Both the position numbers and the translations under genes were made by a program. Positions 51,087-51,703 of a stretch of DNA of 64,000 bases are shown here, piece by piece. Below the pieces are notes generated by a model that did not search any database, had not been told where the DNA came from, and worked only from the letters and a program-made list of their open reading frames with translations. Position 1 is the stretch's first letter, and each line of letters opens with the position of its first letter. This DNA comes from Haloterrigena turkmenica DSM 5511 (GTDB taxonomy: Archaea > Halobacteriota > Halobacteria > Halobacteriales > Natrialbaceae): the NCBI RefSeq assembly GCF_000025325.1, contig NC_013743.1:2480001-2544000 (forward strand). Reading direction: 5' to 3'.

Positions 51087-51323
51087 TCACTCGGTAAGCG
51101 GCAGGATGACCCCGAAGATCCACACCGAAAAGAAGCCGATGATGAGGCCGCCGCCTTCCGCGAAGGTGAACAGCGTGTGTTCCCACGCCGGCAGCTGTCC
51201 GACGAACGCGTGGCCGAGCAACTCGCCGGCGGCGCCCAGCACCAGGAGTCCCAGGCCGAGCAGGAAGCCGCCCTTCGTGAGGGTCGGGTAATCGAGATCA
51301 CCGTATCGTCCCGTACGGGTCAT
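51087..51323 (-). CDS. Small two-span membrane protein
   Basis: The 78-residue protein starts MTRTGRYGDLDYPTLTKGG. It has two hydrophobic helices (~18-38 and ~52-74) joined by HAFVGQLPAWEHTLFTFAEGG and ends VILPLTE. Proteins of this pattern recur in haloarchaea. ATG 51323 is favoured over 51338 because TATA-like ATAATAATTCC lies ~25-30 bases upstream. Function unknown. Confidence 0.72.
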   Translation of the reverse strand: MTRTGRYGDLDYPTLTKGGFLLGLGLLVLGAAGELLGHAFVGQLPAWEHTLFTFAEGGGLIIGFFSVWIFGVILPLTE

Positions 51324-51389
51324 ATACGACACAGACACGCGAGGAATTATTATCGCTTCGGAACCTGAAGGCGATCGGTTGGTTTTTGT

Positions 51390-51429
51390 GGACTATCGCC
51401 CAGGACTCGGGACTATCGCCCGGGACTTG
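51390..51429. repeat. 20-bp tandem duplication (18/20 identical)
   Basis: GGACTATCGCCCAGGACTCG (51390-51409) is followed directly by the same sequence with two changes, A to G and C to T (51410-51429). It is intergenic. Confidence 0.85.
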
Positions 51430-51494
51430 AGGTCGTCTTTCGCCTCGAGTGATTGCGACGGCTCGAGTGGGACCCGAGTGTTTGTAAATCAGGG

Positions 51495-51579
51495 GCACGG
51501 GACCGGATTCGAACAACGCGAAGACGTGCTCGCTCGCGGCTTCGTCGCTCGCTGCGCGCGTCTTCCTCGTTCGAATCCG
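51495..51579. repeat. tRNA-Leu-derived hairpin
   Basis: Bases 51495-51514 repeat the 3' end of the adjacent tRNA-Leu (51620-51639) with one mismatch in 20. The last 11 bases (CGGATTCGAAC, 51504-51514) pair perfectly with 51569-51579. An inner seven-base pair set (GAAGACG 51520-51526 with CGTCTTC 51559-51565) extends the stem. Confidence 0.7.
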
Positions 51580-51586
51580 CTGGCTA

Positions 51587-51620
51587 CATTTTCCGCTCAC
51601 GACGTTGTTCGCGGAAAATG
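51587..51620. terminator. Hairpin abutting the tRNA-Leu 3' end
   Basis: CATTTTCCGC (51587-51596) pairs perfectly with GCGGAAAATG (51611-51620) around a 14-base loop. On the tRNA's strand it follows the mature 3' end directly, with T-rich and A-rich arms, so it could end transcription or mark processing. Confidence 0.45.
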
Positions 51621-51703
51621 CGCGGGACCGGATTCGAACCGGCGGACCCCTACGGGACAGCGTCCTAAGCGCTGCGCCGTTGGCCTAGCTTGGCTACCCG
51701 CGC
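51619..51703 (-). tRNA. tRNA-Leu (anticodon UAG)
   Basis: The 85-base minus-strand sequence folds as a class II tRNA. It has a seven-pair acceptor stem GCGCGGG/CCCGCGC with discriminator A and a D arm with AGCCAAGCTAGGCCAACGGC-type Leu features. The anticodon stem CAGCG/CGCTG encloses loop CTTAGGA with anticodon TAG, then comes a long variable arm, and the T arm has GTTCGAATC. CCA is not encoded. Its 3' end is copied ~105 bases downstream. Confidence 0.95.

Follow-up and report, generated by a model that had tools for sequence, protein, structure and literature searches.

Why does the 3' end of a tRNA gene occur a second time, in the same orientation, a short way behind the gene? This question is raised by tRNA-Leu(UAG) of Haloterrigena turkmenica DSM 5511, which lies in a 64,000-nt stretch of contig NC_013743.1 (positions 2,480,001 to 2,544,000; called the window and numbered from its first letter below). 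A preliminary description had seen in the copy either a collapsed integrative element or a small tRNA-derived repeat.

Anatomy of the tRNA-Leu(UAG) locus

The unit 3' of tRNA-Leu(UAG) is about 125 bp long and comprises, from the tRNA outward, the hairpin H1, then the T-loop arm in inverted form, an inner hairpin that varies, and last the copy of the tRNA tail. The features are as follows.

51619..51703, minus strand: tRNA-Leu(UAG), host gene of the unit (ARAGORN; Rfam RF00005, 49 bits)
51619..51639, minus strand: 21-nt core within the tRNA, the original of the copy, beginning at G53 of the T-loop and ending with the discriminator base (sequence; borders from 246 units)
51586..51618, minus strand: H1, the T-rich trailer hairpin directly 3' of the tRNA, TTTTCCGC / GCGGAAAA, its loop carrying paired GA motifs (fold, covariation, motif count)

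51569..51579, minus strand: inverted T-loop arm CGGATTCGAAC, the 5' arm of hairpin H2 (sequence, fold, arm-stem pairing)
51515..51568, minus strand: inner hairpin of H2, the exchangeable module (six-species alignment; exchange test)
51494..51514, minus strand: direct copy of the tRNA 3' end (19/21), which forms the 3' arm of H2 and closes the unit (repeat comparison; borders over units)

As described earlier, the 20 nt at 51495-51514 repeat those at 51620-51639 in the same orientation (95% identity, spacing 125); the full copied block comprises 21 nt (51494-51514 and 51619-51639), of which 19 are identical here. The inverted partner that had been placed at 51569-51579, and its pairing with the copy, were borne out as well, the minus strand of the unit folding into an 11-bp outer stem and an inner stem at -64 kcal/mol (z -4.7, no shuffle equal). 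The gap between the tRNA and the inverted arm is occupied by the second hairpin, H1, whose motif occurs once in the window, with 0.01 occurrences expected. A decayed second tRNA between the two copies was ruled out, as neither ARAGORN nor Rfam found a tRNA or tRNA-like body there.

At tRNA-Leu(UAG) of six species of the genus, H2 and the copy are nearly invariant, while H1 and the flanks diverge; the tip of the inner hairpin carries a 6-nt insertion in Haloterrigena turkmenica. The near-invariance of H2 suggests a host function or repeated conversion. In one draft genome (L020, G007:C151) a complete second tRNA-Leu(UAG), containing one N, stands directly before the cassette, either through duplication or as an assembly effect.

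In an Rfam search of the unit only the tRNA itself scored above the cut-off, and with fast filters the window gave no match. A sub-threshold match to sR39, a C/D-box RNA, on the minus strand at 51547-51601 (16.7 bits, cut-off 50) is probably due to chance. About 70 nt past the copy, at 51390-51427, two near-identical 18-nt direct repeats (GGACTATCGCCCAGGACT) lie 20 nt apart, upstream of a DUF7860 gene (51087-51338, minus strand). The haloarchaeal palindrome CGARCGNAGYGAG, considered as a genome-wide mobile motif, was rejected, as the window holds only one, outside the unit.

Frequency, borders and distribution of the units

The feature behind tRNA-Leu(UAG) is one instance of a far larger pattern. 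When the 19-mer of each tRNA 3' end was searched for with up to 3 mismatches in a range of 500 nt, 84 of the 176 tRNA genes in four species of the genus had a copy of their own tail downstream. With the tails of other tRNAs the search succeeded in 29 of 1760 cases, so the own-tail copies are far beyond chance. Upstream of the genes, own-tail copies were found in 7 of 176, which probably reflect tandem identical tRNA genes (e.g., Gly, Asp). The genome of Haloterrigena turkmenica contains other repeats like that behind tRNA-Leu(UAG).

In total, 253 units were parsed, including pattern-fetched units and a few bacterial loci, and 36 isoacceptor labels were represented among them; the parsing is heuristic, the pattern-fetched loci are biased toward perfect arms, and, as the sequences are related, all p-values given here are nominal. 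In the 246 distinct units compared, the copied stretch runs from G53 to the discriminator base. Its identity to the tRNA is at about the random-tRNA level upstream of G53, rises to 0.80-1.00 across the 21 nt and then falls to 0.51 or less. The median length of the units is 121 bp (10-90% range 102-155 bp). The T-loop reappears as its reverse complement in their 5' arm, whose extension agrees with the host tRNA at 2.91 of 6 and with other tRNAs at 2.08 of 6 (p 3e-20). A chance T-loop palindrome (TTCGAA) as the source of the inverted arm was ruled out, because tRNAs with the non-palindromic T-loop TTCAAAT carry the matching inverted arm. Most trailers behind the tRNA begin T-rich. H1-like trailer hairpins were also seen behind some tRNAs of the host genome that have no tail copy (e.g., L196, L202), and H1 may therefore be a separate, more general feature of trailers.

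Of the 72 genomes of the order, 61 had hairpins with perfect arms, compared with 2 among the remaining 224 in the phylum. A control search with the reversed pattern found nothing in any of the 296 genomes. In a scan of named genomes most matches were in Halobacteria, the usual distance from the tRNA being 35-80 nt, or one unit more. The unit family apparently is class-wide in Halobacteria and appears to have been repeatedly inserted and reshuffled. The same plan with other sequences was found in a few bacteria, in which the tRNA gene is followed by a terminator-like hairpin, an inverted tRNA arm, an inner hairpin and finally a duplicate of the tRNA 3' end; such units are tandem in Planctomycetes Pla163 (six 137-bp units after tRNA-Met) and in Ruminococcaceae RUG10603 (tRNA-Gln). 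These look-alikes resemble the haloarchaeal units in part order and tandem layout, but differ by their unrelated inner sequences and sporadic occurrence. Bacterial loci with this plan were L152 (60-1000), L149 (6800-7600), L159 (1350-1760), L101 and L134.

A collapsed integrative island at tRNA-Leu(UAG) is hardly credible in view of this distribution. A direct copy does flank the tRNA 3' end, as integration leaves it; however, the six species share the same hairpin and copy at this locus and none has an island there, and many other tRNA types show the identical architecture. Uniform units of a single architecture at about half of all tRNA genes, across Halobacteria, likewise do not agree with the collapsed integrative element of the preliminary description, whose other suggestion, a small repeat, holds insofar as the units are tied to tRNA 3' ends.

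Gain, exchange and folding of the units

Comparison of related genomes revealed differences by whole units. At tRNA-Leu(UAG), an additional 94-bp unit, lying exactly between two perfect 22-nt repeats, is present in genome G004 and absent from G002. Orthologous tRNA-Asn genes are followed by a unit in two species and by none in two, orthologous tRNA-Lys(CTT) genes are filled in two species and empty in two, and tRNA-Phe has 3, 1, 2 and no intact units across four species. Behind tRNA-Met genes, for which gene-by-gene orthology is not established, the order of unit types differs between species. Among 45 arrays of at least two units, the proximal copy resembled the tRNA more than the distal copy did in 21 and less in 3 (p 0.0003). 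The freshest copy thus stands nearest the tRNA, a polarity that would arise if new units were added there, but could equally come from gene conversion with the tRNA as donor.

Parts of units differ independently, too. A common inner hairpin (identity at least 0.88) was shared by 87 cross-isotype pairs, whose H1 identity was 0.38 (background 0.34, none at 0.75 or above), and 69 same-tRNA pairs had kept H1 with a different inner hairpin; the pairs are non-independent, and the counts describe rather than test. As the inner hairpin moves independently of H1, the exchanged piece ends at the T-loop arms.

Such changes might have a passive history, in which old duplications of tRNA ends, left for example by excised proviruses, spread in tandem by homologous recombination, while template-switch correction kept the hairpin arms perfect and gene conversion passed on the modules. 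The 21-nt direct repeats suit repeat-mediated gain and loss, which has been described in Haloquadratum with two tRNA-linked cases (PMC3119063), and homologous recombination between them could change the arrays without a recombinase. Perfect stems with few wobbles would fit as well. Nevertheless, we consider this history unlikely: scars are not expected to have identical borders over 36 tRNA types, a uniform size and conserved inner motifs, an inner exchange bounded by 9-bp arms is unexpected of them, and the units are confined almost to one order.

RNA-mediated insertion, SINE-like or target-primed, with the 21-nt copy as target-site duplication, appears highly improbable. While the copy resembles a target duplication and inner hairpins recur at many isotypes, the inner hairpins move without H1, so that the inserted element would be only part of the unit, and the 5' arm is partly tRNA-specific. 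A tRNA-derived SINE, moreover, has a tRNA-derived 5' promoter part and spreads through RNA; in these units the copy is limited to the terminal 21 nt of the tRNA and sits at the 3' end, and the data give no hint of reverse transcription.

The stems themselves show compensatory changes. In 139 units the H1 pair beside the GA motif was A-T in 71, G-C in 63 and neither in 5; stem pairs 2-5 of H1 were Watson-Crick at frequencies of 0.83-0.90, with 0.35-0.51 expected, and the inner helices covary also. Summed over stem pairs 2-8 of H1, G.T and A.C occurred 44 times each, both depleted; H1 is therefore unlike an RNA-selected stem, as G.T is not preferred over A.C. The H2 arm stem was Watson-Crick in 2026 of 2214 cells, and G.T (98) outnumbered A.C (23) in it. 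The strand evidence, also with regard to selection purely at the RNA level, is mixed in that the arm stem prefers G.T and the H1 stems do not. The sense strand folded better than the antisense strand (188 and 44, respectively, for H1), and the structure is likely formed by the tRNA-sense strand, either as RNA or as single-stranded DNA.

These observations bear on the main rival explanation, a structured trailer RNA. The units would be transcribed with the tRNA, and H1 and H2 would function as RNA in termination, stability or 3' processing; alternatively, the copy would sequester the inverted T-loop arm and so keep it from invading the tRNA. Strong compensatory changes in H1 and the inner helices and the G.T tolerance of the arm stem are in line with this idea. 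The strand bias and the fact that H2 hardly varies among six species are our reasons for keeping it as the main rival. We regard it as rather doubtful all the same. The copy is found at only about half of the tRNA genes and is gained or lost among orthologs, the T-rich trailer starts may end transcription before H2 is reached, H1 stems accept G.T no more than A.C, and tandem repetition and module exchange are left unexplained.

Proposed recombination at the T-loop and comparison with known systems

The explanation that we tentatively favor, giving it nearly an even chance, is that each unit is a minimal cassette acting at the DNA level, whose insertion and exchange proceed by site-specific recombination at the T-loop. 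A unit would enter the tRNA gene through recombination at this site, catalyzed by a recombinase acting in trans, and would give the tRNA a new 3' end, while the former 3' end would be displaced outward and remain as the copy. The T-rich start behind the tRNA would provide the restored gene with its own trailer. Recombination at the two T-loop arms would swap the inner hairpins between cassettes, and H2 may serve as a folded single-stranded site, with a logic like that of the integron attC. Such units may be mobile in vivo and active at present.

Integrase-type recombination fits, as an incoming DNA that rebuilds the 3' end leaves exact borders from T-loop to tRNA end. For archaea, att sites located in the T stem-loop and 3' end of tRNA genes are documented (PMC8371274). 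The same crossover fits the exchange of inner hairpins, since this runs between two T-loop arms. The cassette reading is further supported by the clean 94-bp presence/absence difference, the filled and empty orthologs, the polarity of the arrays, the lack of G.T preference in H1 stems and the bacterial look-alikes, in which the hairpin lies beyond a terminator-like hairpin. Against it stand the G.T tolerance of the arm stem and the folding of the sense strand, which also fit RNA, the small variation of H2 among six species, the possibility that homologous recombination alone altered the arrays, and the outcome of our searches for a recombinase and for carriers. None of the 10 Phage_integrase matches in the host genome could be linked to the units or lies beside the tRNA-Leu(UAG) array. 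Only one, C1:1456445-1457253, adjoins a tRNA gene, tRNA-Ala(GGC), which has no unit; an integrated element there as the source of the ends was rejected, as no second copy of the 3' end of this tRNA occurs within 80 kb. The search of phages and plasmids gave no match, viral contigs gave no haloarchaeal tRNA match, and no circular or viral form was seen.

Several known systems share parts of this plan. Archaeal elements that integrate into tRNA genes by SNJ2-, SSV- or pNOB8-type tyrosine integrases (PMC8371274) likewise duplicate the tRNA 3' end from the T-loop region, restore an intact tRNA and allow tandem accretion. In our units, too, a direct repeat of the tRNA 3' end flanks the insert; in contrast to those elements, they have no integrase gene within or beside them and no cargo genes between the repeats, at about 120 bp leave no room for a gene, possess an extra inverted T-loop arm and occur at about half of the tRNA genes. 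Integron cassettes with attC are also short and tandem, with a terminal hairpin of inverted core sites, a variable tip and the freshest copy beside a fixed platform. Tandem cassettes with terminal hairpins are present here, and these hairpins would be the recombination sites; however, the units contain no ORF, no IntI was identified, the tRNA gene is the platform and the T-loop the core, and each host tRNA has its own version of the copy. MITE, REP/REPIN and PATE-type palindromic elements, the last described in Haloquadratum (PMC3119063), are similarly short, non-coding, hairpin-forming and numerous, with interchangeable parts. The units differ from them in being fixed to tRNA 3' ends with an exact 21-nt duplication and in taking their terminal arms from the target tRNA. 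The inverted arms of 9 bp consist of T-loop sequence, with an extension that varies with the host tRNA.

In the open-access literature we found no description of tRNA-linked hairpin units, although older or closed literature may hold one; the nearest published cases were prophage-linked partial tRNA duplications (PMC3119063) and a review of archaeal integrases (PMC8371274). It is possible, and we propose it with reserve, that Halobacteria possess an undescribed integron-like, gene-less system, in which tRNA 3' ends would be the platforms and att-only hairpin DNA units would be inserted and exchanged at the T-loop by a trans-acting recombinase. About half of the tRNA genes in an archaeal class would then bear a module with precise borders that lacks annotation and evolves as units are inserted, stacked and swapped. 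This affects the reading of tRNA trailers, integration sites and "tRNA scars" in haloarchaeal genomes. For experiments, genetically tractable haloarchaea are available, Haloferax volcanii among them, and the units may lead to a recombination system or an RNA system that operates on tRNA ends.
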